A DNA stretch of 64,000 nucleotides from Aureimonas sp. AU22 (GTDB lineage: Bacteria > Pseudomonadota > Alphaproteobacteria > Rhizobiales > Rhizobiaceae). Below are positions 1 to 17,409 of this stretch, one piece after another; positions within the stretch are counted from its first letter, which is position 1; the number at the start of each line of letters is the position of its first letter. The stretch lies in contig NZ_BBWJ01000037.1 in assembly GCF_001463745.1 (NCBI RefSeq), positions 1 to 64,000 on the forward strand, given 5' to 3'. The notes beneath the pieces were generated by a model, which saw nothing but the letters and a program-made list of their open reading frames with translations, had not been told where the DNA came from and searched no databases. Made by a program: the position numbers and the translations under genes.

Positions 1-1077
1 GAATACGCCCGCGCCAGCAGCCGCCGGCTCTTCTGGTGGCGGCTGCGCGCCCACCGTCTCGCCGTGCTCTCGCTCGTGTTCCTCGTCACCGCCTACCTCG
101 TCGCGGCCACGGCCGAATTCGTCGCGCCGACAGGCGTTGCCACGCGCGACACACGCCACATCTTCATGCCGCCGCAGCCGATCCATCTCTTCCACGAGGG
201 TCGGTTCGTCGGGCCCTTCGTCTACGCGATGAACGGTTCGCTCGACATGGACACGCTGCAGCGCCGCTATGTGCAGGACCGCTCGGCGCCGATGCCGCTC
301 CGGTTCTTCTGCCGAGGCGAGCCCTACCGCTTCTGGGGTCTCTGGGAGGGAGATCGCCACCTCTACTGCGCGCCGAAAGGCGGCACGGCCTTTCTTCTCG
401 GGTCGGACCGCCTTGGGCGCGACATGGCCTCGCGGCTGGTGCATGGAGCAAGGATCTCGCTGACGATCGGGCTTCTCGGCGTCACGCTGACGCTCGCACT
501 CGGCCTGCTGTTCGGAGGCATCGCGGGCTACCTCGGCGGCTGGGCCGACTTCTGGCTCGGGCGCGTGACGGAGATCCTGCGCTCGCTGCCCCATCTGCCG
601 ATCTGGCTCGCGTTGTCCGCGGCGCTCCCCGTGACCATGAGCCCGCTTCTGGTCTACTTCGCGATCACCGGCATCCTCGCGTTCCTGGAATGGCCGGGAC
701 TGGCGCGCGCCGTGCGGTCGAAGCTTCTGTCCCTGCGCGAGGAGGATTTCGTCGCCGCCGCCGAGATGATGGGGGCGGGTCCGACGCGCATCATCGCGCG
801 CCATCTCCTGCCCAACTTCATGAGCCATATCGTGGTTTCGGCGGCGCTCGCGATCCCTTCGATGATCCTGGCCGAGACGGCCTTAAGCTTCCTCAATCTC
901 GGTCTTCGCGCCCCGATCACGAGTTGGGGCGTGCTCCTGACGGAAGCCCAGAACATCGAGGCGGTGGTGCTGTATCCCTGGCTGCTTTTGCCCATGGCGC
1001 CCGTCATGGCGACGGTTCTCGCCTTCTCGTTCCTTGGCGACGGGCTGCGCGACGCGCTGGATCCCTTGTCGGACTGA
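1..1077 (+). CDS. ABC transporter permease, oligopeptide/microcin C type (DppC/YejE-like), 5' end outside window
   Basis: This is an inner-membrane permease of a peptide-type ABC importer. The frame is open from base 1, so the true start lies upstream. The visible N-terminus (RLFWWRLRAHRLAVLSL) leads into a first membrane helix. A long periplasmic segment of about 110 residues follows, and then the conserved LGSDRLGRDMASRLVHGARIS entry into the permease core. The cytoplasmic EAA-like loop is visible as GAGPTRIIARHLLPN, and the end (FSFLGDGLRDALDP) is the usual C-terminus of DppC/OppC proteins. The long extension between the first and second helices is typical of YejE-type permeases and is the reason for that comparison. 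Partner permease, ATPase and binding-protein genes would lie to the left of the window. Confidence 0.88.
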   Translation, partial: EYARASSRRLFWWRLRAHRLAVLSLVFLVTAYLVAATAEFVAPTGVATRDTRHIFMPPQPIHLFHEGRFVGPFVYAMNGSLDMDTLQRRYVQDRSAPMPLRFFCRGEPYRFWGLWEGDRHLYCAPKGGTAFLLGSDRLGRDMASRLVHGARISLTIGLLGVTLTLALGLLFGGIAGYLGGWADFWLGRVTEILRSLPHLPIWLALSAALPVTMSPLLVYFAITGILAFLEWPGLARAVRSKLLSLREEDFVAAAEMMGAGPTRIIARHLLPNFMSHIVVSAALAIPSMILAETALSFLNLGLRAPITSWGVLLTEAQNIEAVVLYPWLLLPMAPVMATVLAFSFLGDGLRDALDPLSD

Positions 1078-1086
1078 CGGGACGGC

Positions 1087-2319
1087 TTAAAGCCAAGACG
1101 TGGCGTCTTCGGAGAGAAGGCCGTAGAGGGCGGTGGTGTGGTGGGTTCCCCGCAGGGTGAAGTGCCCGACCTCGCGCCATTGCGGCGCATGGGCTCCCGC
1201 GATGTCTTCCGTCGCGAGCACCGGCACACCGAGGCGCTTCGTTTCCTTCTCGATCCGCTCTGCCTCGTTGACGGCCGGCCCGATCACGGAGAAGGAGAGG
1301 CGCTGGCGGATGCCGATATTGCCGAGCCGTACCTCGCCGACGCAAAGCGCGATGCCGAAATCGAACTCGATCTCGCCCGCTTCACGACGCCTGACATTGA
1401 TCTCGCGGCGCGCGCTTCGGGCCGCGCGCGCGGCCTCGACGCCCTGCCGGATCGCGTCCTGCTGCGTGAGCTTGTCCTCTTGGATCGGGAAGACGGCCAG
1501 CACCGCATCGCCGATGAAGGCGAGGATCTCGCCCCCCGCTTCCATCGCGGCGTGGCCGGAACACTCGAAGTAGTCGTTGAGAAGCGAGAGGTAACGATCC
1601 TCGCCGAGGTCTTCCGCAAGGCCGGTCGAATTTCTGAGATCGGAATACCAGACCAGCGCCCGGACCTGACTGCCGCTTCCCAGACGGATGTGACCGCCCA
1701 AGACCTCGCGCGCGATGGTGGGTCCAAGATACGTGTCGGCAACGCTCGTGATGAGGCGGGGATAGATGCCGAGCTTACAGGCGAGCGCCATGTAGCGCTG
1801 GAGCTGCTGCAGGATCTCCACTACAGTGTCGTGGAAGCCGCCGGGCGCGCGGGTGGCCCAGGTCACGTAGAGGCCGAGATCGTCCTCGCGCAGCGGCAGC
1901 ACGGATCGGCCCATGAACATCTCGGTGCGAAGGCCGATGAGATCGGTGAAACCGTCGCTCCGCAGTTCCTCGTAGAGGTCGAAGGGAAGGGCGCCGGTCA
2001 CGTCGAGCCGGCCCCTCAGGAAGGTCGCGCCGTTATCCAGCATCCACTTGATGGGGCTGCGGAGATATTCGGGCGACGATTCCTCCTGATGAAGAAAGCG
2101 CTTGGTGTCGATGCCCCGTCCTACGGTCCAGAGCACCGTTTCCGCCTCGAAGAGGGGATGAAGGGTCGACCAGGTCATGCGGCACCGGTCGATCGGGACG
2201 CCGACGCGATTGAGCTTGTGCGCCAGGCCCTCCAGCATCGACTCCAGGGGCTTTTCCGCGAGCGCCTGATGCAGGAGCCAGTCGCCGATCTCGAGGATCT
2301 TGGTAGTGTTGAGCACCAT
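1087..2319 (-). CDS. Class III adenylate/guanylate cyclase with degenerate substrate pocket
   Basis: 410 aa. The N-terminal ~200 residues form an unassigned sensor-like region, and residues ~218-405 form a class III nucleotidyl cyclase domain. Both metal-binding aspartates are visible (D227 in WYSDLRNST, D271 in FIGDAVLAVF), as is the transition-state pair N351/R355 in VNEAERIE. The lysine that normally selects the purine just before the GD motif is alanine (A267 in ILAFIGD), and the usual VIGD is VIGP (P348). The product could therefore be cAMP, cGMP or something else, or activity could be low. I chose the ATG 8 bp after the stop of the upstream hydrolase gene. The frame is open further upstream, but there it reads through that gene and is not plausible. 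It is the last gene of the four-gene cNMP module and ends 9 bp from the convergent permease gene. Confidence 0.88.
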   Translation of the reverse strand: MVLNTTKILEIGDWLLHQALAEKPLESMLEGLAHKLNRVGVPIDRCRMTWSTLHPLFEAETVLWTVGRGIDTKRFLHQEESSPEYLRSPIKWMLDNGATFLRGRLDVTGALPFDLYEELRSDGFTDLIGLRTEMFMGRSVLPLREDDLGLYVTWATRAPGGFHDTVVEILQQLQRYMALACKLGIYPRLITSVADTYLGPTIAREVLGGHIRLGSGSQVRALVWYSDLRNSTGLAEDLGEDRYLSLLNDYFECSGHAAMEAGGEILAFIGDAVLAVFPIQEDKLTQQDAIRQGVEAARAARSARREINVRRREAGEIEFDFGIALCVGEVRLGNIGIRQRLSFSVIGPAVNEAERIEKETKRLGVPVLATEDIAGAHAPQWREVGHFTLRGTHHTTALYGLLSEDATSWL

Positions 2320-2327
2320 CGCGGTTT

Positions 2328-3191
2328 CTATGCTTCCGCTTCGCGGCGCAAGGCCGAGAGCATGATCTCGAGCCCCGGCCGTCCGGCGACGACGCCCGGT
2401 CTCAATGCCTGCATCTCGCGCAAGATCTGCGCGAGGTCGCTGTCGCGGCGCTTGTGGGAATGGTGGAACAGAACGAGGTGCTCGATACCGGCATAGGTGG
2501 CCAGTCGCACGCCTTCCTCGTAACTCGAATGCCCGTAGCCCGCGTAGGTCTGCATCTCGGCATCGGTGAAGGTGGTGTCGAAGACGAGGACGTCCGCACC
2601 GCTCAAGAAGCCTTCCAGCGCGGCGTCTCGCTTGCCCGGCCGATGTTCGTGGTCCGTCGCGTAGACCATGGACCGCCCGGCTGACACGACACGATAGGCG
2701 ACGGCGCCGTTGGGGTGGTGGAGTTCGTGCGTCGTGATTTCGATCCCGGGGCCGGGACGCAAGAGATCCCCCGGCCGGAAGGTCACGTAGTCGATGTCGG
2801 CCTTGAACTTCTCCAGGCCGACCGGGTGGAACGGCGGGCGCAGGAAATCCGCCAGGAGTTCGCGGCAACTGCGGCCGTCCTGCATGTGGCCGGCATGGAT
2901 CCGGATGCGGCAGCCGGGATGGTAGAAGGGGGCGAAATAGGGCAGCCCGATGACGTGATCGTAGTGGGCGTGCCCGAGGAAAAGGTCGATCTCGCGCTGG
3001 TCCGATGCCATGATCCGGTTGCCGAGATCGACGATGCCGGTGCCGGCATCGAAGACGAGCATCCGTCCTTCCGCTTCGATCGAGACGCAGCAGGTCCGCG
3101 CGCCGAACTGGGAAGGGTCGTCGGGAGCGAAGGGAAGCGTTCCCCGTGCGCCCCAAACGACCATGCGCATTCCGTCCTCGGCAGTCCTCAC
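2328..3191 (-). CDS. MBL-fold metallo-hydrolase
   Basis: 287 aa. A metallo-beta-lactamase-fold hydrolase with the metal-binding signature GHAHYDHVIG (H74, H76, D78, H79) after the DAGTGI turn. Downstream histidines and aspartates (ATDHEH, FDTTF, LFHHSHKR) supply the remaining ligands. The general shape resembles RNase Z/PDE-like MBL enzymes, some of which cleave cyclic nucleotides (class II PDEs). Lying between a cNMP-binding protein and a cyclase, a cyclic-nucleotide phosphodiesterase role is attractive but is only inference. The start is a GTG 4 bp after the stop of the CNB gene; internal ATG codons at residues 8 and 10 are alternatives. It is co-directional with its neighbours and almost certainly in one transcript with them. 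Confidence 0.85.
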   Translation of the reverse strand: MRTAEDGMRMVVWGARGTLPFAPDDPSQFGARTCCVSIEAEGRMLVFDAGTGIVDLGNRIMASDQREIDLFLGHAHYDHVIGLPYFAPFYHPGCRIRIHAGHMQDGRSCRELLADFLRPPFHPVGLEKFKADIDYVTFRPGDLLRPGPGIEITTHELHHPNGAVAYRVVSAGRSMVYATDHEHRPGKRDAALEGFLSGADVLVFDTTFTDAEMQTYAGYGHSSYEEGVRLATYAGIEHLVLFHHSHKRRDSDLAQILREMQALRPGVVAGRPGLEIMLSALRREAEA

Positions 3192-3195
3192 GGCG

Positions 3196-3660
3196 TCACG
3201 TGAGCTGCGCTGCCGCGGCGCGCGCCGATACGAGTTCGGCCGACGTTCGATTCAATCGCATCGCCATTTCCCGAAGCATGACGCGCGCCATGGACGGGAA
3301 GGCGTCCATCATGTCCGACAGGCATTCCTTCCCCATGCGCAGCGTCGCGAGATCACCCGCCGCCCGCACCGTGGCGGTCCTCGGGATGTCGCAAAGAATG
3401 CCGATCTCGCCAACGACCTCGTTCGGCCCGAGGCGGGCCAGCTCGATCTCGCCGATCGGCGATTCGGCCACCACGATCGCTTCGCCCGACAGGATGAGAT
3501 AGGCGCTGTCGCCGACGTCGCCCTGGTGGAACAGCGCGTCGCCGCCGGAAAAGCGCATGACCTGCGAAGTGAAGGCCACAAGCTTCAGACGGCTGAGTGC
3601 CACCCCTTGGAACAGCGGCGCCCGACGAAGAACTTCCACTTCATCGACAAGAAGACTCAT
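3196..3660 (-). CDS. Cyclic nucleotide-binding domain protein (stand-alone)
   Basis: 154 aa. A single cNMP-binding (CAP/Popeye-type) beta-roll. The phosphate-binding cassette is well kept: VVGEIGILCDIPRTATVRA contains G84-E85, which bind the ribose hydroxyl, and R94-T95-A96, which bind the cyclic phosphate. There is no DNA-binding helix-turn-helix after the domain, only a short helix-rich tail, so this is not a CRP/FNR transcription factor but probably a sensor that acts by protein contact. The upstream degenerate ABC gene ends 27 bp before its start and the hydrolase gene follows after 4 bp. The context suggests it reads the nucleotide made by the cyclase at the end of the same operon. Confidence 0.9.
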   Translation of the reverse strand: MSLLVDEVEVLRRAPLFQGVALSRLKLVAFTSQVMRFSGGDALFHQGDVGDSAYLILSGEAIVVAESPIGEIELARLGPNEVVGEIGILCDIPRTATVRAAGDLATLRMGKECLSDMMDAFPSMARVMLREMAMRLNRTSAELVSARAAAAQLT

Positions 3661-3687: not shown

Positions 3688-6558
3688 TCATTGCGCCTTG
3701 GCAGGAAAGGATAGGCCGACGCGGCGCTGATCGGCAAGACTGTCACTTGTGACCTGTCCACGTTCGAAACGCACGATGCGGTCGAAAAGTTCTTCGTCCA
3801 CGGGCGCCGAGGGTACCCAGAACATGCCGAACGGACGCTGCGGGTCGCGCGACTGTTCGAGAACCGCCCTGAGGATGCGTGCCTGCGTGTCGGCGTCGAG
3901 CGACGACAGGCAACGATTGGCGATGAGGTAGTCCGGTGTCTTCAGGAGAGCGCGTGCCAGGGTCAGCTTCTGCTGCTGACCGAGACTGAGCCGCTTGGCG
4001 CCGGCGCCCACATCGAACTCGAGCGCCGTGCGCAGCAGGACGGAGCCGAGATCGAACGCGCCGATCGTCTCGGCGAGAAGTGCATCGATCATGGCGCTCG
4101 TCTTGGGCGTCGCGTTGGCCACGCGGCCGAAGACGATGTTGTCCTGAAGCGTCGCGGCCGAGTTGAAGTGCTCGGGATCGTAGAACACGACGCTCTCACG
4201 CACCATCGCGGACGCCGTCGCATGGAAGATGTCGCGGGCCTCGATCACCTGCGCGCGAAGCCCGTCATCCACGAGGCCGAGGCGGTAGCGGGGCTCGACA
4301 TAGGCAAGCGCCAGCCGGATGAGAGCGCCACGGTCCTCGCTCGTCTCGGCGGGGCGCCCCGTCATTCCCAACCGCATCACGAGCTGCCGGTAGAAGTCGA
4401 TGTCCTCGGCCTTGATGATGTCCATGCGGCGCAGCAGCGGATCGTCCGCGCTGAGTTCGCCGAACATTTCCACGAGGGTCACCGCGATCTTGCGTCCCAT
4501 TTCGACCAGGGTCCGGTCGAGGCCGGTCTGTTCCAGAACGCGTCGGGCATCCGAGCGAACAAGGAGGCGGGTGGCGACGAGTTCGTCCTCGCGAGACGCG
4601 CCGAAGACGAGGTTCTCCAAAAGCGTCGCATGGCTGATGAACGCGGCCGGGTCGAAGCGTTCCACGACCGCTTCCAGGCCTGCTTCCCGAAGCCGTTCGG
4701 CAAACTGTCTGCGCGCCCGGACCACCTTCGATCTCGCTTGGCCGGTAAGCTGCGCGGGGACGCGACCGGAGAGACCGATGCGCGTCATGTCGCGGCTCAA
4801 CTCCACGGTCGCCACGACCTCTTCGATCCGCCTGATCTCGCCGTCCGGCTCCGCCGGCAGGACCATCCGATCCACCCAGTCCGCGCCGGCGTCGAGCACC
4901 ATGTTGCCCGAAGCCTTCGCCTCCATTCGGGTCTGCGCTTCCGTGCGCGTCCGGGGCTCGGCGGCGTCCTCCAGCGGATAGTGCATCAGCGGATAGAGCA
5001 GGGCCTCGAGAAGGGTCGAGCGCGGGTAGTAGGGCGCGGCCTCGGCATAAGCGAGGCGGCGTCCGGTTACGGATTCCGGCCAGGCCGCTAGGGGGCGGTT
5101 CGAGAGCGTGATCGCGCCCGAGGCGAGGGGAGCGAGGCCCGCGAGCGCTTCCGCGACGCTCTCGGCGCCCTCACCGAGCGGCCCCACCGCGACCATGCGC
5201 TGTTGGAGCGGCAGTTCGAGCGTGATCCCGCTCGCAAGCGTCGCGCCGGTATCGTCGCGGATCGTCGCGTCGATCAGGTGGAACCCGCTTTCCAGGGTTT
5301 CGGGGCTGGTCCTGCCGGCGGCCTGCGTCGCCGGGTCGAGCAGGCCGTCGATCTCGAACTGCTGGGCGACCTGTTCGTACTTCACGTCGACGTCGAGGCG
5401 CATCAGGTCCCAGTCGATGAGGTCTTTGAGCGGTGCGGGCAGCTCGCGATAGGCCGCGATCACCGCGACGAGTTCGCCGATGTCGATCTGGCCGCGGATC
5501 GCGAAATATCCGCCGAACATGTAGAAGATGAACGGTGTCGCCTGCGAGAGGAAGTTGTTCAGGAACTTGACGAAGAACTTCCACTGGTAGATGTCGAAGC
5601 GGATCAGGAAGATGCGCCCGAGCTGCTCGGAGATGCGGGCCCGCACGATGTTGGACGTGTCGTTTGTGCGGATCGTCGGCATGCTCTCGATGATCTCGCC
5701 GACCGAGCCGGCCAGCCGCCGGGCGGTCAGCTGCCGCTCGCGGCCCAGCACCAGCAGCCGGCGGCGCATGCGCGGGATCAGCAGCGCCTGGAAGGCCGTC
5801 ACCGCGAAGGCGACGGCGCCGAGCGTCCAGCTCTGGAGGAAGATGAAGATCATCGCCGTCAGGATCTGGCTGGCGAGGTAGAGCGGCTGCACGAAGGCGT
5901 CGCCGATGAAGCCGCCGATCGGCTCCAGCTCGTCCTTGATCATCGAGGCGACTTCGGCCGGCCGCACCCGCCGGAACTGCCGGATGGGAAAGCGCAGGAC
6001 GCGGTCCACCATCTCGTAGCGCATGCGGCGCAGCATGCGCTCGCCGAGGCGCCCCTTGTAGGTGTTCAGATAGAACTTGAAGGCCCCGTTCACGATCACG
6101 AAGAGCAGGAACAGGGACGACAGGACGAACAGCGCCTCCAGCCGCTCGAACGGCGTGCCGTCCAGAAGCACGAGTTCGTCCGGACCACCGAAGAAGCCGG
6201 GGAGCGGGATCGTGAGCCGGAAGTAGTCCACGGTCGATCCGGGCGACCCGAAGCCGTCGCCCTGGATCGGGCCGTTGATGATGAGCTTGGGCAGGTTCAG
6301 CGACAGGAAGAACGGAATGATGGACAGGATGACCACCACCAGCATCCAGATCTGGTCGCGGCGCGTGTGGCGCCAGATGTAGCGATACAGGGAGGTCGCC
6401 ATGGGATGCGCTGCTGCTTCGAAAGGCTTGGTGGATTTCGTGGGCAGGAGCGCAGGAAGCTCGGCGTCCGTCAAGACGGGCGGAATGCGGACCGCGGCGG
6501 CGCTTCCCGAGGCGCTCGAACCCTTGTGGACGCGATCCGCGTCAGGTAGGTTTTCCAC
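3688..6558 (-). CDS. Degenerate ABC-exporter-like protein with repeated Q-loop segment
   Basis: 956 aa. Residues ~65-375 form an ABC exporter type-1 membrane domain with about six helices. Residues ~425-935 correspond to a nucleotide-binding domain stretched to twice the usual length and altered at catalytic sites. The Walker A position reads GPLGEGAES (459-467), lacking the Lys-Ser/Thr. The signature reads RLSLGQQQKLTLARALL (856-872). Walker B plus D-loop reads LIANRCLSSLD (878-888), where LxxDEATSALD is expected. The segment that follows a Q-loop occurs three times: STLLEALLYP (514-523), ATLLENLVFG (644-653) and ATLQDNIVFG (802-811). The start is a GTG only 23 bp from the divergent glycosyltransferase gene. 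An in-frame ATG at 6402 (residue 53, MATSLYRYIW) just before the membrane domain is an equally good choice and would leave room for promoters. ATP hydrolysis looks unlikely; a regulated scaffold or sensor is possible. Confidence 0.8.
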   Translation of the reverse strand: MENLPDADRVHKGSSASGSAAAVRIPPVLTDAELPALLPTKSTKPFEAAAHPMATSLYRYIWRHTRRDQIWMLVVVILSIIPFFLSLNLPKLIINGPIQGDGFGSPGSTVDYFRLTIPLPGFFGGPDELVLLDGTPFERLEALFVLSSLFLLFVIVNGAFKFYLNTYKGRLGERMLRRMRYEMVDRVLRFPIRQFRRVRPAEVASMIKDELEPIGGFIGDAFVQPLYLASQILTAMIFIFLQSWTLGAVAFAVTAFQALLIPRMRRRLLVLGRERQLTARRLAGSVGEIIESMPTIRTNDTSNIVRARISEQLGRIFLIRFDIYQWKFFVKFLNNFLSQATPFIFYMFGGYFAIRGQIDIGELVAVIAAYRELPAPLKDLIDWDLMRLDVDVKYEQVAQQFEIDGLLDPATQAAGRTSPETLESGFHLIDATIRDDTGATLASGITLELPLQQRMVAVGPLGEGAESVAEALAGLAPLASGAITLSNRPLAAWPESVTGRRLAYAEAAPYYPRSTLLEALLYPLMHYPLEDAAEPRTRTEAQTRMEAKASGNMVLDAGADWVDRMVLPAEPDGEIRRIEEVVATVELSRDMTRIGLSGRVPAQLTGQARSKVVRARRQFAERLREAGLEAVVERFDPAAFISHATLLENLVFGASREDELVATRLLVRSDARRVLEQTGLDRTLVEMGRKIAVTLVEMFGELSADDPLLRRMDIIKAEDIDFYRQLVMRLGMTGRPAETSEDRGALIRLALAYVEPRYRLGLVDDGLRAQVIEARDIFHATASAMVRESVVFYDPEHFNSAATLQDNIVFGRVANATPKTSAMIDALLAETIGAFDLGSVLLRTALEFDVGAGAKRLSLGQQQKLTLARALLKTPDYLIANRCLSSLDADTQARILRAVLEQSRDPQRPFGMFWVPSAPVDEELFDRIVRFERGQVTSDSLADQRRVGLSFPAKAQ

Positions 6559-6581: not shown

Positions 6582-7727
6582 ATGCCAATCGACTTGATGG
6601 CGGCTCGCCCTCCGCTTTTCTTCTACGCTCCGCTGAAGTCGCCGGACGATCCCGTACCCTCGGGGGATCGCACGGTTGCGCGTCTTCTCATGTCGGGCCT
6701 ACGGTCCGCCGGCTTCGACCCGCGTGTAGCCAGCACATTCCGGGCGTTCTCGCGCGATGGAGGCGACCAGACCGAGATCCTCGATCGCGGTCGCCGGGAA
6801 GCCGAGCGGCTTGTCGAGGCGGTCGCGAACCTGCCGCGCGAGCGACGTCCCCGCCTTTGGTTCACCTATCACAGCTACTACAAGGCGCCCGACCTCCTCG
6901 GGCCGACGGTCTCGCGCGCGCTCGACATCCCCTATGTCCTCGCGGAAGCCTCGCATGCCGAAAAGCGGCGGCATGGGCCCTACGCCCGGTTGCACGAGGC
7001 CTCGGCCGTCGCGGCGAGGGCGGCCGATCTCCATCTCGTCCTCAACCGACGCGACGGGCCGGGTCTTGCCGCGCTTCGAGGGGGCGACGCGGGTCTCGCC
7101 CATCTGCCTCCCTTCGTCGCGGGTGCGGCGACGACGGCACCGGCGCCCCTGTCGTCGACAGGCCCCTTGCGGCTCGTCGCCGTCGCCATGATGCGGCCGC
7201 CCGACAAGCTGCAATCGTATCGTCTGCTGGCGGAGGCGCTCACTGAGGTCGACGCCGACTGGTCGCTGGAGATCTGCGGGGACGGCACCGCGCGCACCAT
7301 GGTCGAGGCCGCATTCGCGCCCTGGCCCGAACGCGTGCGCTTCCACGGGCTCGTCACCGATCCCGATCGGCTCAACGACGTCTACCGCTCCGCCGATCTT
7401 CTGGTGTGGCCAGGTTTCAACGAGGCATTCGGCATGTCCTATCTCGAGGCGGCCAGGCACGGCCGACCCGCTCTTGCGATGCGCTATGGCGGCGTTTGCG
7501 AAGTCGTGGAGCACGGCGTTTCCGGTCTCCTCGTGGACGCCGGGGACTGCACGGGTTTCGCCGAAGGTCTGAGCCGCCTTGCCGACGACCGGGCGCTTCT
7601 TCGGCGCCTTGGGGAAGGCGCGCGCGCGCGGGCAACGGGGCGACACGGTTTCGAGGAGGCGGTTGGTCGATTGTCGGCGGCGCTTCGGCCTCTTCTGCGG
7701 GCAGGGACGGTGTCGTGCGCGTCCTGA
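6582..7727 (+). CDS. Glycosyltransferase, family 4 (GT-B fold)
   Basis: 381 aa. A retaining GT-B glycosyltransferase. The N-terminal half starts with PPLFFYAPLKSPDDPVPSGDR, the acceptor side. The C-terminal half has the nucleotide-sugar site with LEICGDG, WPGFNEAFGMSYLEA (the E-x7-E motif) and GRPALAMRYGGVCEVVEHG. It probably adds one sugar to a lipid-linked or surface polysaccharide at the cytoplasmic face of the inner membrane. The first ATG is used; ATG at 6597 (MAARPPLFF) is possible. The next gene begins inside its last codons, so the two are translationally coupled, and it heads the plus-strand arm of the polysaccharide locus. Confidence 0.85.
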   Translation: MPIDLMAARPPLFFYAPLKSPDDPVPSGDRTVARLLMSGLRSAGFDPRVASTFRAFSRDGGDQTEILDRGRREAERLVEAVANLPRERRPRLWFTYHSYYKAPDLLGPTVSRALDIPYVLAEASHAEKRRHGPYARLHEASAVAARAADLHLVLNRRDGPGLAALRGGDAGLAHLPPFVAGAATTAPAPLSSTGPLRLVAVAMMRPPDKLQSYRLLAEALTEVDADWSLEICGDGTARTMVEAAFAPWPERVRFHGLVTDPDRLNDVYRSADLLVWPGFNEAFGMSYLEAARHGRPALAMRYGGVCEVVEHGVSGLLVDAGDCTGFAEGLSRLADDRALLRRLGEGARARATGRHGFEEAVGRLSAALRPLLRAGTVSCAS

Positions 7728-9619
7728 TCGCGGTCACCCATCTCCTGGGCGTCGGCCATCTCGCGCGCGCCGCTCAACTGGCCCGGGGGCTGGTCGTCCG
7801 CGGACACGAGGTGTGCCTTGCGACCGGCGGTCGACCTGTGCCCCACCTCGATCTCAAGGGCGTCGACGTCGTGCAACTCCCGGCCGTGCATTGCCGGGAT
7901 GCGGATTTCCGAACGCTCTGGACGGACGCGGGGACGGTTCTCGACGATGCGGGAAAGGCGGCGCGGCGCGATGCGCTTCTCGCCGCCTTCCGTCGCTTCG
8001 TGCCGGACGTGGTGGTGACCGAAACCTATCCCTTCGGCCGCCGCTCTCTGCGCGGCGAGTTCGAGGCACTGGTGCGGGCAGTCTGGGAGCGTCCCGATCG
8101 CCCCGCGCTCCTTGCCTCGATCCGGGACATCCTGAACCCGCCGTCGCGCGCGGCGAAAGCGGCGGAGGCCGACGCCGTGGTTGCGGGGTACTACGACGGC
8201 GTCCTGGTTCACGGCGATCCGGCCGCCGTCCCTTTGGAGGCGTCCTGGCCGGTCGGCGAGCGACTGGGGTCGCGCCTGCGCTACACCGGCTACATCACGG
8301 ACGGAGCTTCCGGCGACAAGCCGCAGGAGCGGACGGATGAGATCATCGTCTCGGGCGGCGGAGGGACGGCGGGTCTTCCCCTGTTCGAAGCCGCCGTCGC
8401 GGCCTCGCATCTCGACGCAGATGGTTTGAGCTGGCGCGTCCTCGTCGGTCACGGCGTGCCGGACGACGCGTTCCGGCATCTGGCGGAACGAGCCCATCCG
8501 CGCCTCGTGGTGGAACGCGCCCGACGTGACTTCCGCGCGCTCCTCTCGCGGGCCGCTGTTTCCGTCAGCCAAAGCGGGTACAACACGGTCCTCGATCTCG
8601 CAGCGGCCGGAACGCCCGCCGTTCTGGTGCCCTTCGAAGAAGCGGGCGAGCGCGAGCAGGCTCTCCGGGCGGCGCGGCTCGCGGCATCCGGCCTCGCCGT
8701 GCTCCTGCCGGCACGCGAGTTGGCGCCGCAGACGCTTCTGCGTGCCGTCGACGCGGCGCGTTCGCTGCCGGTCGATGCCGCGCCCGCGATCGATACCGCG
8801 GGCGTTGCGCGAAGCGTCGCGCTGATACGGGAAGCCGGTACGCGGGCGCAGGAGGTCCGGGCAGCCTGGGCTGCCCTCGACCGGCAGCTCGAAACGCTAG
8901 CGGAAGGCGGGCGGCCGGCTACGGTCTGGTGGCGAGACGACGACGCGGCCGAGCCGACGGAGGCGCTGGACCGCTTGCTCGACCTGCGCGCGCGCCTCGG
9001 CATGCCGCTGGCGCTTGCGATCAGCCCGCGGCTCGCCACCGACAGGCTGGCAGCCCGGTTGCGCCGCGAGGGAGACGATCTCGCTGTACTCGTCCACGGC
9101 ATCGAGCATGCCAACCATGCGCCGACGGGCATGAAGAGCTGCGAACTCGGGTTTCGGCCCATCGGGGACCTTCTGACTGCGCTGACGGACGGTCTCGAAG
9201 ATCTGCGGACGCGCTTCGGCGCTCGGGTGCTGCCGGTTCTCGTGCCGCCCTGGAACCGGATCGATGCCGCCCTCGTCCCGGAGCTGTCCGCGATCGGCTA
9301 TCGCGGTCTTTCGACCTTCGGTCCGCGCGCCGGCGCCGCCCTGGATGGGCTGTGCATCGTCAACACGCATTGCGACCCGATCGCCTGGCGGCAGGGCCGC
9401 GGGCTGGCCGACGAGGTGGACATTCTGACGAAGCTTGTCCGCGATCTCGGGCGCGAGGAGTCGATCGGCCTCCTGACGCACCACCTCGTCCATGACGATC
9501 GGATCTGGCACTTCACGGAGACGCTGTTGTCCCGCCTTGCCGTTCATCCCGGAATCCGTTGGATGCGCACGGATGCCGTGTTTGCGGCCGCAATACCAGA
9601 CGAGGGGACAAGGGCATGA
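7715..9619 (+). CDS. Fusion of MurG-like glycosyltransferase and polysaccharide-deacetylase-like domain
   Basis: 634 aa. Residues 1-~390 form a GT28/MurG-like glycosyltransferase: it opens VRVLIAVTHLLGVGHLARAAQ, and its donor-binding part is seen as IIVSGGGGTAG (210-220) and SVSQSGYNTVLDLAAAGTPAVL. Residues ~400-634 resemble a carbohydrate-esterase-4/polysaccharide-deacetylase-like (NodB-related) domain, with WWRDDDAAEPT (405-414), a histidine pair in HGIEHANH (461-468) and VLVPPWNRID (507-517). The GTG start at 7715 gives a 13-bp overlap with the upstream gene. The next gene starts in its stop codon (ATGA). One protein may both transfer and deacetylate a sugar, or the second domain may be non-catalytic. 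Confidence 0.8.
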   Translation: MRVLIAVTHLLGVGHLARAAQLARGLVVRGHEVCLATGGRPVPHLDLKGVDVVQLPAVHCRDADFRTLWTDAGTVLDDAGKAARRDALLAAFRRFVPDVVVTETYPFGRRSLRGEFEALVRAVWERPDRPALLASIRDILNPPSRAAKAAEADAVVAGYYDGVLVHGDPAAVPLEASWPVGERLGSRLRYTGYITDGASGDKPQERTDEIIVSGGGGTAGLPLFEAAVAASHLDADGLSWRVLVGHGVPDDAFRHLAERAHPRLVVERARRDFRALLSRAAVSVSQSGYNTVLDLAAAGTPAVLVPFEEAGEREQALRAARLAASGLAVLLPARELAPQTLLRAVDAARSLPVDAAPAIDTAGVARSVALIREAGTRAQEVRAAWAALDRQLETLAEGGRPATVWWRDDDAAEPTEALDRLLDLRARLGMPLALAISPRLATDRLAARLRREGDDLAVLVHGIEHANHAPTGMKSCELGFRPIGDLLTALTDGLEDLRTRFGARVLPVLVPPWNRIDAALVPELSAIGYRGLSTFGPRAGAALDGLCIVNTHCDPIAWRQGRGLADEVDILTKLVRDLGREESIGLLTHHLVHDDRIWHFTETLLSRLAVHPGIRWMRTDAVFAAAIPDEGTRA

Positions 9620-10962
9620 GCCAGGAAGCGAACGCGGCGGCGATCGCGCTCGGGCGGTTGATCACGGAACGACGCGCGCGCGTCGCCGTGATCGGGCTCG
9701 GTTATGTCGGGTTGCCGCTGGCGCTGGCGTTGTGCCGTGCGGGTTTCCCCGTGCTCGGCTTCGACATCGACGAGCGTCGCGTCGCGCTGCTCAATCGGGG
9801 CGAGAGCGGTATCCGGCACATCGCGGCGGATGCGATCCGAACGGCGCTCGATGAAGACCGCTTCGAGGCCACCGCGGACTTCGCCCGGCTCGGCGAGGCG
9901 GATGCGATCCTGATCTGCGTGCCGACCCCGCTGACGCGCCAGCGCGAGCCGGACCTGTCCTTCGTCGAGCTTGCCAGCCGTCAGATCGCCAGGACCCTGC
10001 GGCCCGGACAGCTCGTGGTGCTGGAATCGACGACCTGGCCGGGGACCACGGAGGAGTTCGTGCGGCCCATTCTCGAAGAGGGTGGCGCGCGCTCGGGCGA
10101 AACCTTCTTCCTCGCCTTCTCGCCCGAGCGCGAAGACCCCGGCAATCCGAACTACGGAACGCGCGACATTCCCAAGATCGTCGGCGGCGACGGAGCGGAT
10201 GCGCTGCGGCTGGCCGAGGCGCTCTACGGTGCGGCGATGGCGTCCACGGTGCCCGTATCGAGCCCGGCCGTGGCGGAAGCGGTGAAGCTCACCGAGAACA
10301 TCTTCCGGTCGGTCAACATCGCGCTCGTCAACGAGTTGAAGGTCGTCTACGGCGCGATGGGCATCGACGTCTGGGACGTCATCGCCGCGGCGTCGACCAA
10401 GCCCTTCGGCTTCATGCCGTTCCAGCCCGGGCCGGGCCTCGGAGGGCACTGCATTCCCATCGATCCGTTCTACCTCGCCTGGAAGGCACGCGAGTTCGAG
10501 GTTCCCACGCGGTTCATCGAACTGGCCGGGGAGATCAACACGGCCATGCCCCGCCACGTGGTGGATCGCCTGGCCGAAGCGCTGGATCGCCGCTTCGGTC
10601 TCGGCCTCAACGGCGCCCGCATTCTCGTGCTCGGCGTTGCCTACAAGCGCAATGTCGAGGACACGCGCGAAAGCGCTTCGTTCCGGCTGATCGAGCTGTT
10701 GGAGGACCGGGGCGCGCAGACAAGCTACCACGACCCGCATGTGCCCGAGATCGGCCCGACCCGGGAGCACGCGCAGTTGGCGGGGCGTCGGTCGATCGAC
10801 CTGAGCGCAGACGCGATCGCGGGCTTCGACGCCATCCTGATCGCGACCGACCACGACGACGTCGACTACGCGCTCGTGGCGCGCCACATGCGACTCGGTC
10901 TCGACACGCGCAACGTCTTCGCCAAGCGGAACCTCGACCTCACGCGCGTCGTCAAGGCGTGA
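9616..10962 (+). CDS. Nucleotide-sugar (UDP-glucose/UDP-GlcNAc type) 6-dehydrogenase
   Basis: 448 aa. It oxidises C6 of a UDP-sugar to the uronic acid using two NAD+. The NAD-binding motif VIGLGYVGLP is at residues ~24-33, the catalytic cysteine is C279 in GPGLGGHCIPID, and the C-terminal UDP-binding domain has VLGVAYKRNVEDTRES. The GGHCIP form and the PKIVGG element are shared by the TviB/WbpA and UDP-glucose dehydrogenase groups, so the exact substrate is open. The ATG overlaps the stop of the upstream fusion gene (ATGA). The epimerase at 13752-14789 could take its product from a glucuronate to a galacturonate form. Its end overlaps the convergent glycosyltransferase gene by 11 bp. Confidence 0.9.
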   Translation: MSQEANAAAIALGRLITERRARVAVIGLGYVGLPLALALCRAGFPVLGFDIDERRVALLNRGESGIRHIAADAIRTALDEDRFEATADFARLGEADAILICVPTPLTRQREPDLSFVELASRQIARTLRPGQLVVLESTTWPGTTEEFVRPILEEGGARSGETFFLAFSPEREDPGNPNYGTRDIPKIVGGDGADALRLAEALYGAAMASTVPVSSPAVAEAVKLTENIFRSVNIALVNELKVVYGAMGIDVWDVIAAASTKPFGFMPFQPGPGLGGHCIPIDPFYLAWKAREFEVPTRFIELAGEINTAMPRHVVDRLAEALDRRFGLGLNGARILVLGVAYKRNVEDTRESASFRLIELLEDRGAQTSYHDPHVPEIGPTREHAQLAGRRSIDLSADAIAGFDAILIATDHDDVDYALVARHMRLGLDTRNVFAKRNLDLTRVVKA

Positions 10963-12250
10963 GTTCGACGTCCATCAGGCTGTCGTGGAGAAGGCGCTTC
11001 AGCGTCGTGATTCCGCCGTCGAGTGAGAATTGATCGACGAGCGTGGCGAACGCGGCCGCGCCCAGACGCTCTCGCGCATCCGGATCGGCGATCAGTTCGG
11101 CCAGCACAGCGGCCAGCGCGGCGGCATCGCCGGGGGGGACGAGACGACCGTTCGCGCCGTCCGTGACGAATTCCGGCACGCCCGCGTAGTTCGTCGAGGC
11201 GATTGCGAGTTTCTGCGATGCGGCCTCCATCAGGACGTTCGGTAGGCCGTCGCGGTCGCCGCCATCCCCCTCGCGGCAGGCGAGCACGAAGAGATCGGCC
11301 TCGCGCAGTGCCTTCACCACGCCGTCCTGCGGCTGCGAGCCCTTCCATTCGATGCGACCGGCGATGCCCAGCCGTTCCGCCTGTGCCTTGAGCTGATCCT
11401 TCAATTCGCCCGACCCGATATGGACGAGGCGCCAGTGTCGGTCCGCGGGCAGCATCGCGAGCGCGTCGAGGAGGTCCGAGAAGCCCTTCTTCGCCACCAT
11501 CCGCCCGACGCTCACGAGGTGGATGGGATCTTGAGGATCATGGCCGTCGCGCCGCGCGGTTCGCTGGGGGGGCGGTGGGAAGCGCGTCAGATCCAGCCCG
11601 TGATAGGCGAGCCGAACCCGGCCGGGGTCGTCCGTCGGGGACAGGCGCATGAGCTCTGCGTAGCCCTGCCGTGTGCACGTTACGCCCCAGCGGCTCGCGG
11701 CGATCTTCTCGCGTCTTTCCCACTCCGGGGTCGTCCAGATATCCTTCGCATGCGCCGAAAAGCTCCAGGTGCCGTTGCGTAGCAGCGCGGCGTATCGAGC
11801 GACCGAAGCGGGCGTGTGGAGGAAGTGCACGTAGAGATGCGCGAGCTCGGGATCGAGTTCGCGCGCCAGGACCAGCGCCTGTCCGAGCCGGCGCATGCGA
11901 TTGGGCGTCGGATCGCGCCGCAGGTCGCGCAGGGCCGTGGACAGGAACGCACCCCAACCCGGCAGCTGCCGCGCATGGAGAAGGCCTGCGAGCACCCGCC
12001 GCGGCGCCTGGTAGAGATATTCCGGGAGGTAGTGAAGCCGCGCCCGTATGCGTTTGTGAAGCTCGTGGCGCGCGCTGTCGGTCGGTCGGCGCAACGACCA
12101 GATCTCGACGAGGAAACCTGCCTCCTCCAGAGCCAGGATTTCCTGCGCGATGAAGGTCTCGGAAAGGCGAGGGTACCCCTTCACCACGATCGGAAGGCGA
12201 CGGGCGGCCGGGCCGTGCGTATCCGGCCTCGTTCGAATGTCCATCTTCAC
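10952..12250 (-). CDS. Glycosyltransferase, family 4, exopolysaccharide type (WcaL/AmsK-like)
   Basis: About 430 aa. A GT-B glycosyltransferase with the N-terminal signature PIVVKGYPRLSETFIAQEI, typical of the colanic/amylovoran-type branch. The C-terminal donor site has VSVGRMVAKKGFSDLLDAL, a GDGGDRDGLPNVLMEA element (the E-x7-E position) and AGVPEFVTDGANGRLVPPGD. The GTG at 12250 overlaps the stop of the upstream glycosyltransferase gene (GTGA); an ATG two codons later at 12244 is equally acceptable. It is the second gene of the minus-strand arm of the polysaccharide locus and converges on the dehydrogenase gene with an 11-bp overlap. Confidence 0.88.
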   Translation of the reverse strand: MKMDIRTRPDTHGPAARRLPIVVKGYPRLSETFIAQEILALEEAGFLVEIWSLRRPTDSARHELHKRIRARLHYLPEYLYQAPRRVLAGLLHARQLPGWGAFLSTALRDLRRDPTPNRMRRLGQALVLARELDPELAHLYVHFLHTPASVARYAALLRNGTWSFSAHAKDIWTTPEWERREKIAASRWGVTCTRQGYAELMRLSPTDDPGRVRLAYHGLDLTRFPPPPQRTARRDGHDPQDPIHLVSVGRMVAKKGFSDLLDALAMLPADRHWRLVHIGSGELKDQLKAQAERLGIAGRIEWKGSQPQDGVVKALREADLFVLACREGDGGDRDGLPNVLMEAASQKLAIASTNYAGVPEFVTDGANGRLVPPGDAAALAAVLAELIADPDARERLGAAAFATLVDQFSLDGGITTLKRLLHDSLMDVELTP

Positions 12251-13509
12251 GCCCGAACCGCGCCACGGTCCGCCCCGGAATATCCGTCCGCCAGGAGCCC
12301 GTGCGCCGCGATCTCGATGCGGTCGAGTCCTTCCATCAGGCCAGCCGGAAAGCTCTGCGACGGCAGCGGCTGTTGCGCGAGGGCGCGGATCGCCTCGCCC
12401 ATGACGCCGGGGTCGCGCCGGGCTCCGGGCTCCAGCATCGCCCCGTCCAGCATGGCGATGAGACCGAGCTCCGCCGCCCGCTCGGCGCGGATCGTCTGCT
12501 CCAGGCGAGGCGTCCGCCGGGGCACGATCAGCGCACGCTTGTCGAAGGACAGGATCTCGCAGAACGTGTTGTATCCCCCCATCGCGATCACCCCTTCGGA
12601 GCGATGCATGAGGTGCTCGATCTTGGAATCGAAGGTGATGGCATCCACGCGGGGCAGTGTCGCGACACGCTCGATATAGAGGGCACGGCGCGCACGCGGG
12701 ATGAAGGGTCCGAACACCAGCAATGCGCCGAGCGGGATCGTGGGATCGGCTTCGTAGGCCGAGATCACCCAGTCGATGAGTTCCTCGCCGTCGCCGCCAC
12801 CCCCCGTCGTGACGAGCGCGAACGGCTCGCGGGTCAGGCGTGGATAGCGTGTCGTCTGGGGCCGGGGCGGCAGTTCGCGGCGGATGTAGCCGGTATAGAC
12901 GATCCGTTCCGCCACGGCTGGCGGGAGGTCGAAGGCATCGAGCGGCTTGTGCATCTCGGGCAGTCCGTAGACCCAGATCTCGTCGTAGAAGCGCTCCAGC
13001 GCGGACAGCGCATCCTTGCGCTCCCATTCGGGCACGATCACTGCCGGCTCGTCGAGAATGTCGCGAAGTCCGAGCACGATACGGGTTCCCACGCCCTTGA
13101 GATACTGAAGCGTCGGGAGAAGCTCGTCGCGAAAGCCGGTGGGCTCCTTGTCGACGATCAGGATGTCGGGCTTGAGACCCCGCGCGGTCGCCATAATGAT
13201 GGCTTCGCGCATGCGAACGGTTTCTTCGAGGTCGAGGGAGAGGCTGGACGTGGAGTAGGTGCCGTCCGGCAGCTTCACAACGCCGGGCACGCGCACGAAG
13301 TCGATCCCGTCGCCGAACTCGAAGCTGCCGATCACGGGAGATCCCGATATGATGACGATCGAGGGCCGATCGAGGCCGAGAGCCAGTCGGTTGGCGATGG
13401 CGCGGCATCGACGGATGTGGCCGAGGCCGAACGTGTCATGGCTGTAGATCAGGATGCGCGGGCCGCCCGAGCGTGCCGGATGAGGCGTCCTGAGGGGTGT
13501 GATCGACAT
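12247..13509 (-). CDS. MurG-like glycosyltransferase (GT28 superfamily)
   Basis: 420 aa. It opens after a short tail with PRILIYSHDTFGLGHIRRCR, the GHxxR glycine-rich acceptor site of MurG-like enzymes, and carries LVTTGGGGDGEELIDWV and GVIAMGGYNTFCEILSF in the donor domain. It is clearly related to the first half of the fusion protein at 7715-9619 (same GLGHIRR / GVGHLAR element and same GGGG turn), so the locus carries two members of this family. The ATG at 13509 was chosen because upstream in-frame sequence lacks any family similarity. A TATAAC-like -10 element lies ~50 bp upstream on this strand. It is the first gene of the minus-strand arm. Confidence 0.85.
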   Translation of the reverse strand: MSITPLRTPHPARSGGPRILIYSHDTFGLGHIRRCRAIANRLALGLDRPSIVIISGSPVIGSFEFGDGIDFVRVPGVVKLPDGTYSTSSLSLDLEETVRMREAIIMATARGLKPDILIVDKEPTGFRDELLPTLQYLKGVGTRIVLGLRDILDEPAVIVPEWERKDALSALERFYDEIWVYGLPEMHKPLDAFDLPPAVAERIVYTGYIRRELPPRPQTTRYPRLTREPFALVTTGGGGDGEELIDWVISAYEADPTIPLGALLVFGPFIPRARRALYIERVATLPRVDAITFDSKIEHLMHRSEGVIAMGGYNTFCEILSFDKRALIVPRRTPRLEQTIRAERAAELGLIAMLDGAMLEPGARRDPGVMGEAIRALAQQPLPSQSFPAGLMEGLDRIEIAAHGLLADGYSGADRGAVRA

Positions 13510-13556
13510 CAAAGATTTCCAGGCCTCCGACGCGAGACCGATTGTCTGCGGGGGTT

Positions 13557-13590
13557 CGTTATACGACAGAGGCGCGCGATTGGCGAAAGC
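13557..13590 (-). promoter_or_regulatory. Possible promoter for the minus-strand glycosyltransferase pair
   Basis: Reading the minus strand, TATAAC (13558-13563) resembles a -10 box ~50 bp before the ATG at 13509. The -35 region (TTCGCC at 18-bp spacing) is poor. It is the only recognisable -10-like element in this otherwise GC-rich divergent gap. Confidence 0.3.
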
Positions 13591-13751
13591 GGAAAATACG
13601 CCTTGCGCCGGCTGCGGTCCGGCACGGCGCCTTTCCCGGCCTGTATGGCATGTTCCTCGCACGTCCGGAATCGACGGACGAACTCGGGCGCCGGCTTCTT
13701 TCGGCGCCCCGTTCCGGCTAGGAACTGCGAATCGAAAGGACGCAGGGTCGC

Positions 13752-16303: not shown

Positions 16304-16450
16304 GCAAGCCTTAGCCCGATCCGGGCGATGCGCCAAGGATGCTTAAGGGGAAACGCCGCCCCGATCCCGTCGGTCGAGGAGACCGCACCCGGCCGATCGC
16401 GATCCTGCGCCGCACTGGCGTCGGCGGGCGGGAACGCCGATATATCCCGC

Positions 16451-17263
16451 ATGCCGGATCTTTTCCCTCCCGTCGCCGCCACGCCCAGCCTGTTTGCCGG
16501 GATGCCCGACCTCGTGGTTCGCGTGATCGACGTGGAAACGGCCGGGCATCGGCTCGAGGACGATGCGGTGATCGAGATCGGATCGGTCGACGTCGACCTT
16601 TCCGCCGGGGCGATCTTCGATCCGCGCGAAAGTCTGGTCGATCCCGGCGGTGTCGAAATCTCGCCCGGCGCGCGCCGCGTGCATCGGATCTCGGACGAGA
16701 TGCTGGCGGGCGCGCCCGATTTCGCGACGGCCCGGTCGCGGTTCGCGGGGGCTCCGATCTATGCCGCGCAGCGCGCGTCGTTCGACCGGTCGCGTCTGGC
16801 GCTGCCGGGCCGATGGCTCTGCACCTACAAGCTGGCGCTGCGTGCGTTTCCCGAGGTGCGGGCGCACGGGCTCCAGTCGCTGGTGAAGTATGTGCCGCTG
16901 GATCTTTCGGACGTGGCGGACCGCCTGCGCGATTCGCACGCGCATCGCGCTTTGTATGACGCGCTCTGCACGGCCGTGCTCCTGCGCCGCATCGCGCAGG
17001 AGTTGATGCCGCGCTGTGCGGACGCGGCGGATTTCCTTGATCGCGCCGAGCGGGTGTCCGCCGAACCGGCGCTTCTGGCGCGCCTGCGGTTCGGACGCCA
17101 CAAGCACGTGCCGATCCGCGAGGTGCCGACCGACTACCTCGAATGGCTCGTGCGGGAGCCGGGGATGGATGCGGATGCGGTCTTTACCGCGAAACATCAC
17201 GTCGCCCTGCGCGAGCGCGCCGCGATGGCGGCGATCGCACGTCCGCTGCCGGTGACGGCGTAG
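16451..17263 (+). CDS. DEDDh 3'-5' exonuclease (exodeoxyribonuclease X-like) with DUF3820-type C-terminus
   Basis: 270 aa. Residues ~18-190 form a DnaQ-fold exonuclease: RVIDVETAG holds the first Asp-Glu pair, AQRASFDRS the middle aspartate, and SHAHRALYDALCT the final H-x4-D. Residues ~215-250 (FGRHKHVPIREVPTDYLEWLV) match the small C-terminal domain found in ExoX-like proteins, in which GKHKG...VPxxYLxWL is typical. The ATG at 16451 was chosen because the open sequence before it has no family likeness. It precedes the DNA ligase gene by 146 bp on the same strand, suggesting a repair pairing, but there is no overlap to prove one transcript. Confidence 0.85.
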   Translation: MPDLFPPVAATPSLFAGMPDLVVRVIDVETAGHRLEDDAVIEIGSVDVDLSAGAIFDPRESLVDPGGVEISPGARRVHRISDEMLAGAPDFATARSRFAGAPIYAAQRASFDRSRLALPGRWLCTYKLALRAFPEVRAHGLQSLVKYVPLDLSDVADRLRDSHAHRALYDALCTAVLLRRIAQELMPRCADAADFLDRAERVSAEPALLARLRFGRHKHVPIREVPTDYLEWLVREPGMDADAVFTAKHHVALRERAAMAAIARPLPVTA

Positions 17264-17409
17264 CGGTCGGTGGATCGAACGCCGACGGCCGAAAGGGGCT
17301 GCCCGACCGGCACGCGGCGGAACGCCTGCGACGATAGGGTCGCCATGTGCTGGCCGATCCGTGGGCCGGAGCTATCTAGAAGGGTCGACCGACACCGGGT
17401 TCAGCCCTC

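Follow-up and report, generated by a model that had tools for sequence, protein, structure and literature searches.

Exporters of the ATP-binding cassette (ABC) type are taken as ATP machines, and their nucleotide-binding domains (NBDs), whose helical subdomain passes NBD motions to the membrane domain, are usually the most conserved part. In SUR1 and SUR2, the regulators of KATP channels, the exporter fold serves regulation, binding and hydrolysing nucleotide at one site and gating a K+ channel. SbmA/BacA is an exporter-type membrane domain without an NBD that works without ATP hydrolysis. A degenerate ATP site within the exporter fold is found in TM287/288, TmrAB, BmrCD, CydDC, MRP1 and CFTR; these exporters keep one consensus site per dimer (PMC7756269). 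HetC of Nostoc is a peptidase ABC exporter with an N-terminal cyclic-nucleotide-binding (CNB) domain, required in vivo; it carries a C39 peptidase domain, one of its catalytic ATPase residues is essential, and ppGpp was the ligand that its CNB domain bound best (PMC10986499). Here we describe a degenerate ABC-exporter-like gene from Aureimonas sp. AU22 and the family to which it belongs. The gene lies in the first 64,000 nucleotides of contig NZ_BBWJ01000037.1, and this whole stretch is referred to below as the window.

The window protein resembles the homodimeric type IV exporters MsbA, BmrA and ComA/PCAT1 in its membrane-domain fold, its complete NBD fold, its D-loop and part of its signature. 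In contrast to them, its catalytic Walker residues are replaced, it has a CNB partner, and its NBD half is larger by ~290 residues, with helical subdomains repeated. Like the exporters with one degenerate site, it carries a degenerate ATP site in an exporter fold; unlike them, the homodimer that it presumably forms would have no consensus site. With SUR1 and SUR2 it may share the use of the fold for regulation rather than transport, and no channel gene was seen among the scanned neighbours in the window. The family differs from SbmA/BacA in having an NBD, and a conserved one. HetC (PMC10986499) is alike in joining an exporter to a CNB domain; in the window family the CNB domain is separate or C-terminal, and the ATPase residues are gone. 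No peptidase domain was found in Pfam scans of the window proteins and family members. Neither the fold nor any single element is without precedent: degenerate sites are described in PMC7756269, and a CNB domain on an exporter in the case of HetC (PMC10986499). The open-access literature that we searched held no description of the family, nor of site loss, helical-subdomain triplication and a CNB partner combined.

The gene and its landmarks are the following.
3688–6558, minus strand: degenerate ABC-exporter-like gene, 956 codons from GTG, matching Pfam ABC_membrane and ABC_tran
5299–6402, minus strand: membrane domain, residues 53–420, with Pfam ABC_membrane at 77–368; the most conserved part of the protein
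5158–5184, minus strand: former Walker A, GPLGEGAES, residues 459–467; Lys changed to Ala, Ser/Thr to Glu
3895–3927, minus strand: former Walker B and D-loop, LIANRCLSSLD, residues 878–888; Asp changed to Asn, catalytic Glu to Arg, D-loop Asp retained

In the former Walker A, Ala465 takes the place of the Lys and Glu466 that of the Mg-binding Ser/Thr; in Walker B, Asn881 replaces the Asp and Arg882 the catalytic Glu, with Asp888 of the D-loop retained. The signature reads LSLGQQQK where LSGGQ is expected, and the H-loop His and Q-loop Gln are absent. Pfam matched ABC_membrane with E = 1.2e-22 and ABC_tran with E = 1.2e-8 (above the cut-off), the latter best over residues 791–880. The predicted structure has a type IV exporter fold in the membrane domain together with a complete NBD fold, and structural matches span model residues 1–901. 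An earlier note on this DNA, made from the letters alone, had read the Walker A loss, the altered Walker B/D-loop stretch and the retained exporter fold correctly. Among 38 aligned relatives conservation starts near residue 53, the first ~52 residues being unconserved; residue 53 is an ATG (position 6402) in the sequence, and the natural start is therefore probably this codon, giving a protein of 904 amino acids. The same window contains an ordinary, intact ABC exporter (GPSGAGKTT, LSGGQ, LDEATSALD) at 42626–44380 on the plus strand, which was used as a control.

Full-length relatives occur in 18 of 41 close genomes. The family was found in 98 of 289 alphaproteobacterial genomes (E ≤ 1e-60), in 26 of 299 genomes sampled across the phylum (E ≤ 1e-50) and in 262 plasmid records, mainly from Rhizobium and Sinorhizobium; the genomes include Aureimonas, Cypionkella, Rhodobacter and Pararhizobium. 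In the phylum sample the sole match outside Alphaproteobacteria was a membrane-domain fragment on a 3.2-kb contig (L158, genome G436), possibly a case of transfer or contamination. In public records the gene carries no more specific name than “ABC transporter ATP-binding protein” or the like, and all 29 members scanned matched Pfam ABC_membrane. In the S. meliloti 1021 pSymB record (L155, NC_003078.1 841723–844435) the family gene has stops in all three forward frames, and in the record of strain R28 it is annotated as an open coding sequence. The S. meliloti gene SMb20813 may lie near the family gene. SMb20813 is called the msbA homologue in PMC10945364.

We collected 92 distinct family sequences and counted motifs on the 90 longer than 800 amino acids, including the window’s own and a diverged paralogue (L106); two sequences cut by contig ends (L039 and L051) were dropped. 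The Walker A Lys is retained in 32 of these 90, the Ser/Thr in 8, the Walker B Asp in 11 and the catalytic Glu in 28, and 42 members have none of the four. Glu or Asp occupies the Mg position in 71, and Asn stands in Walker B in 65. In a tree of the membrane domain the window protein falls within a clade of 34 members (Shimodaira–Hasegawa-like approximate likelihood ratio test support 99). In this clade the Lys is retained in none, Asn881 is present in all 34 and Arg882 in 30, and the D-loop Asp, Ser/Thr at 858, Gln861, Gln863 and Arg869 are each found in 34 of 34. Replacement residues that are constant throughout a clade indicate that the new motif is fixed, so that the catalytic loss claimed by the earlier note is borne out, with new conserved residues where the old ones stood. 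Homologues with intact motifs, which that note had named as counting against it, are few: L105 alone retains the full set of four residues, and another four members retain three of them. Across five close pairs, the ratio of nonsynonymous to synonymous substitution rates (dN/dS) was 0.08–0.36 for each of the large regions (membrane domain, the two NBD cores, insert), which shows purifying selection, and 0.12–0.48 over the 19 codons around Walker A.

The enlargement of the NBD half is a real internal amplification. Three “ENxxFG”-like segments lie at residues 514–523, 644–653 and 802–811, where the earlier note had placed them, and they are parts of larger repeats. We split the family alignment of 90 members into three pieces and compared them profile to profile with hhalign. 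Copy 2 (612–770) matched copy 3 (768–905) with E = 1.5e-16 (98.7%) over 77 columns, and copy 1 (495–612) matched copies 2 and 3 with E = 1.6e-7 and 2.3e-7, respectively, matches that bear out the internal amplification read by the earlier note. The motif Asn is invariant in copies 2 and 3 (90 of 90 members), which makes the repeats a property of the whole family, including members outside the clade that has lost every Lys. At the copy 1 position it is Asn in 56 of 56 members outside the window protein’s clade and mostly Ala (18 of 34) within it.
4204–4989, minus strand: extra region, residues 524–785, further copies of the NBD helical subdomain by hhalign; no Pfam family
A Pfam scan of this region matched no family. 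The predicted model of residues 497–852 has a predicted local distance difference test score of 88.8, and its middle copy gives a weak structural match to ABC helical subdomains; the insert model was built from 75 of 79 filtered sequences. In a diverged paralogue (L106:3434-6022, L162:4956-7802, L163:3039-6086) the order is the same, and the NBD and repeated insert are common to both (hidden Markov model positions ~388–493 and 539–902), the membrane domain hardly so. Its neighbours include a metallo-beta-lactamase-fold protein (L163) and a CHASE3-cyclase (L162).

Directly downstream of the ABC-like gene lies the gene for the CNB partner.
3196–3660, minus strand: stand-alone CNB protein, 154 amino acids, phosphate-binding cassette GEIGILCDIPRTATV intact; 27 bp downstream of the ABC-like gene; Pfam cNMP_binding 3.6e-18
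A CNB homologue is present at the locus of 85 of the 92 distinct members, in 8 of them as the C-terminus of the same open reading frame (ORF). Pfam confirmed cNMP_binding in all nine fused ORFs scanned, always C-terminal and never N-terminal. Where the CNB gene is separate it lies on the same strand as the ABC-like gene in 64 of 64 clustered loci, and the median distance from the end of the ABC-like frame is 4 bp. No CNB gene was seen at the remaining 7 of 92 loci, namely the two cut by contig ends (L039 and L051) and L064, L074, L075, L100 and L106; reading farther out around L064 and L075 did not reveal one either. Within the phosphate-binding cassette, Gly is conserved in 86 of 86 rows, Glu in 83 and Arg in 86 (the window’s own protein counted twice). 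With the cassette retained, ligand binding looks conserved in the CNB partner while ATP catalysis has been lost in the membrane protein.

On the other side of the ABC-like gene lie four glycosyltransferases and a sugar dehydrogenase.
6582–7727, plus strand: GT4-type glycosyltransferase, divergent from the ABC-like gene; Pfam Glyco_trans_1_4 1.8e-24; homologues at 33 of 75 loci
7712–9619, plus strand: protein with a GT28 C-terminal-type glycosyltransferase domain; Pfam 1.1e-10; homologues at 33 of 75 loci
9616–10962, plus strand: UDP-glucose/GDP-mannose dehydrogenase family protein; Pfam 5.7e-44; homologues at 14 of 75 loci
10952–12130, minus strand: GT4 glycosyltransferase co-occurring with the family; Pfam 1.4e-32; in 91 of 98 family genomes and at 41 of 75 loci
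12247–13542, minus strand: GT28-like glycosyltransferase co-occurring with the family; Pfam Glyco_tran_28_C 3.7e-5 (ORF 12247–13662); in 92 of 98 family genomes and at 37 of 75 loci
The 75 loci are those longer than 8 kb with duplicates removed (an 86-locus neighbourhood set includes duplicates). Neighbours were counted with the window proteins as queries, open frames being assigned to the best query at E ≤ 1e-15 over ~5–7 kb per side at most. Of the 75 loci, 45 have one or more of the window’s four glycosyltransferase types.

The linkage extends to whole genomes. Across 289 genomes, sampled in the same way as in the family search, we counted 98 with the family, 94 with the GT28-like gene and 93 with the GT4 gene; family and GT28-like gene occurred together in 92, the family alone in 6, the GT28-like gene alone in 2 and neither in 189 (Fisher p = 2.6e-65, phylogeny ignored). 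We placed the pair in 90 of the 92 genomes with both genes, leaving out the window’s own and one other (G111). The two genes lay within 1.5 kb of each other in 63 (60 of them divergent), farther apart on one contig in 8 and on different contigs in 19, so the co-occurrence is not merely a by-product of adjacency. As a control, we took an unlinked DNA ligase of the window (17410–19077), present in 71 of the 289 genomes. Since 37 of these 71 also have the family, the odds ratio is 2.8 (p = 3e-4), versus 1449 and 1229 for the two co-occurring glycosyltransferases. Phylogeny alone thus yields some signal, and a far smaller one; the search cut-offs differed (1e-60 for family and ligase, 1e-25 for the GT28-like gene, 1e-40 for the GT4 gene). 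This ATP-dependent ligase follows an exonuclease-family protein, the two together occupying 16328–19077 on the plus strand.

Annotated records show a similar arrangement. R. etli p42e and R. beringeri pRlX2 carry a substrate-binding protein and permeases, three glycosyltransferases, the ABC-like gene and the CNB gene, with a cyclase and a nucleotide sugar dehydrogenase in addition on pRlX2, and the S. meliloti pSymB record has a similar neighbourhood theme. Azospirillum pAB510d and Sulfitobacter have glycosyltransferases, a histidine phosphatase and an ABC-like ORF with fused CNB domain; the Sulfitobacter locus adds a nucleotide sugar dehydrogenase and a polysaccharide deacetylase.

Beyond the CNB gene the window continues with three further genes.
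2328–3191, minus strand: metallo-beta-lactamase-fold protein, 287 amino acids, 4 bp downstream of the CNB gene; Pfam Lactamase_B_2 2.7e-17
1087–2319, minus strand: class III nucleotide cyclase-like protein, ~410 amino acids from an assumed start, closing the apparent operon; Pfam Guanylate_cyc 5.4e-5 (23.3 bits, cut-off 21.9)
64–1077, plus strand: binding-protein-dependent transporter permease; Pfam BPD_transp_1 2.9e-27; at 19 of 75 loci; permeases of this kind also occur in the Rhizobium version of the cluster
The order is thus ABC-like, CNB, metallo-beta-lactamase-fold protein and class III cyclase, with gaps of 27, 4 and ~8 bp if the assumed cyclase start is correct. NCBIfam models for RNase Z and for a cyclic-nucleotide phosphodiesterase matched the metallo-beta-lactamase-fold protein, all below their cut-offs, and it is possibly a phosphodiesterase. 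In the cyclase, the stretch GGEILAFIGDAVLAVF has Ala at the position expected to hold the substrate-selecting Lys; the substrate of the cyclase is accordingly uncertain.

These observations are consistent with a non-hydrolysing or barely hydrolysing dimeric exporter-fold protein that is gated by cyclic-nucleotide binding of the CNB partner and serves a glycan pathway, a reading to which we give an even chance of being correct. The protein would form a symmetric exporter dimer, as its fold suggests, with rebuilt ATP sites and little or no hydrolysis. The triplicated helical subdomain would be the likely docking site for the CNB partner, whether encoded next door or fused C-terminally, and cAMP or cGMP bound to that partner would set the NBD pair in an open, closed or locked state, thereby moving the membrane domain. 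Since the helical subdomain couples the NBD to the membrane domain, a ligand-driven change there could open or close the latter. Switching of the membrane domain would then alter how the product of the linked enzymes, a glycan or glycolipid, is handled, through either its translocation or the recruitment of glycosyltransferases. Within the window, the cyclase would supply the signal, which the metallo-beta-lactamase-fold protein may clear. The data show the fold, the repeats, the replaced motifs, purifying selection, the CNB linkage and fusion, and the linkage and co-occurrence of the glycosyltransferases; the lack of ATP hydrolysis, contact with the CNB protein, its cyclic-nucleotide ligand, the glycan substrate, transport and gating are inferences from them. 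A more specific proposal, which we advance tentatively and think more apt to fail than to hold, is that ligand gating stands in place of the ATP engine: a CNB subunit on the triplicated helical subdomain would move the dead NBDs and control passage or assembly of an undescribed surface glycan in roughly one third of the Alphaproteobacteria sampled.

Several observations weigh against this gated, ATP-free reading. Outside the window protein’s clade the Lys is retained in 32 of 56 members and the catalytic Glu in 28 of 56, and one member of the family has all four residues; for these reasons some members may be ATP-using, and the ancestral protein likewise. The NBD changes faster than the membrane domain (47–71% versus 74–89% identity in six genomes), the window’s intact exporter giving 75–79% and 78–87%, respectively, in the same genomes. 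Fast NBD change and a dN/dS of 0.48 in one pair at Walker A mean that part of the NBD may be weakly constrained. L100 and L106 have no CNB gene. Among the five members with at least three catalytic residues, the CNB gene is absent from L064, L074 and L075, which form one clade, and present in L077 and L105; a trade-off between ATP use and CNB control, seen in that one clade, is possible. Within the stretch read, no gene of the window’s four glycosyltransferase types appears at 30 of 75 loci, and both co-occurring glycosyltransferases are missing from five family genomes. The co-occurrence statistics take no account of phylogeny, and a Ruegeria record has the family gene without glycan-type neighbours. 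The metallo-beta-lactamase-fold protein (28 of 75 loci) and the cyclase (19 of 75) are not general either.

A pure scaffold or receptor, in which the exporter fold is a membrane anchor and sensing dimer, the CNB partner or cyclase relays the signal and nothing is transported, is the weaker alternative to a gated exporter fold, and we consider it unlikely. SUR is a precedent for a non-transporting ABC protein, and SUR entries are among the structural matches of the window-protein model; the loss of catalytic residues and the cyclase, encoded in the same operon and with homologues at 19 of 75 loci, point the same way. However, an anchor would need neither a complete exporter fold nor a membrane domain conserved above all other parts of the protein, and glycan enzymes are linked to the family more generally than cyclases are. 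Of the non-hydrolysing scaffold or receptor proposed in the earlier note, the fold and the motif loss stand; the protein may still transport, and the neighbours, which that note did not have in view, indicate a specific context of a CNB partner and a glycan pathway.

It is less probable that the protein is an ATPase with a rearranged site, in which the acidic residue at the Walker A Mg position and the Walker B Asn may have swapped roles so that slow turnover, or ATP binding without any, drives the cycle. The exchange is patterned (of 90 members, 71 with Glu/Asp and 65 with Asn), the D-loop and the signature Gln are retained, and degenerate sites of known exporters bind ATP and serve as hinges (PMC7756269). 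Against this, the Lys and the catalytic Glu are also gone in the window protein’s clade, and the window protein lacks the H-loop His and Q-loop Gln.

We think it improbable that the protein forms a heterodimeric exporter, supplying the degenerate half, with a canonical partner from another place in the genome. Such heterodimers, with a single degenerate site, are common (PMC7756269). The window itself holds the intact exporter at 42626–44380, and at one of 75 loci (L102) a further ORF resembles an exporter across the NBD and part of the membrane domain. In a heterodimer, the degenerate half still lends motifs to the one consensus site, whereas in the window protein all catalytic Walker residues are changed. 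Another ABC ATPase is present at 15 of 75 loci, and 14 of these match essentially by the NBD alone, which marks them as importer or other types; a canonical partner half-transporter is thus not evident at the 75 loci, with L102 the sole exporter-like candidate there. Decay of a pseudogene family, for which the fast-changing NBD and the stops in every forward frame of the S. meliloti 1021 copy might speak, is refuted by the dN/dS of 0.08–0.36 in all large regions, the new motif residues fixed in 34 of 34 and the presence of the family in 98 of 289 genomes.

The family is widespread, and its members have retained the exporter fold while the ATP site was rebuilt with fixed residues, the subdomain that couples the NBD was multiplied and a second-messenger sensor was gained. 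It makes possible a direct test of the idea that ATP hydrolysis is dispensable for driving or gating an exporter. Relatives with Lys and Glu may still bind or use ATP; if so, the family offers a graded series from ATP-using to ATP-free members, a good test bed. For rhizobia and roseobacters it also opens a function-linked way into cyclic-nucleotide signalling, and into a glycan pathway that is apparently undescribed. What we have found suggests that cyclic nucleotides, in place of ATP or besides it, control a machine for surface sugars.

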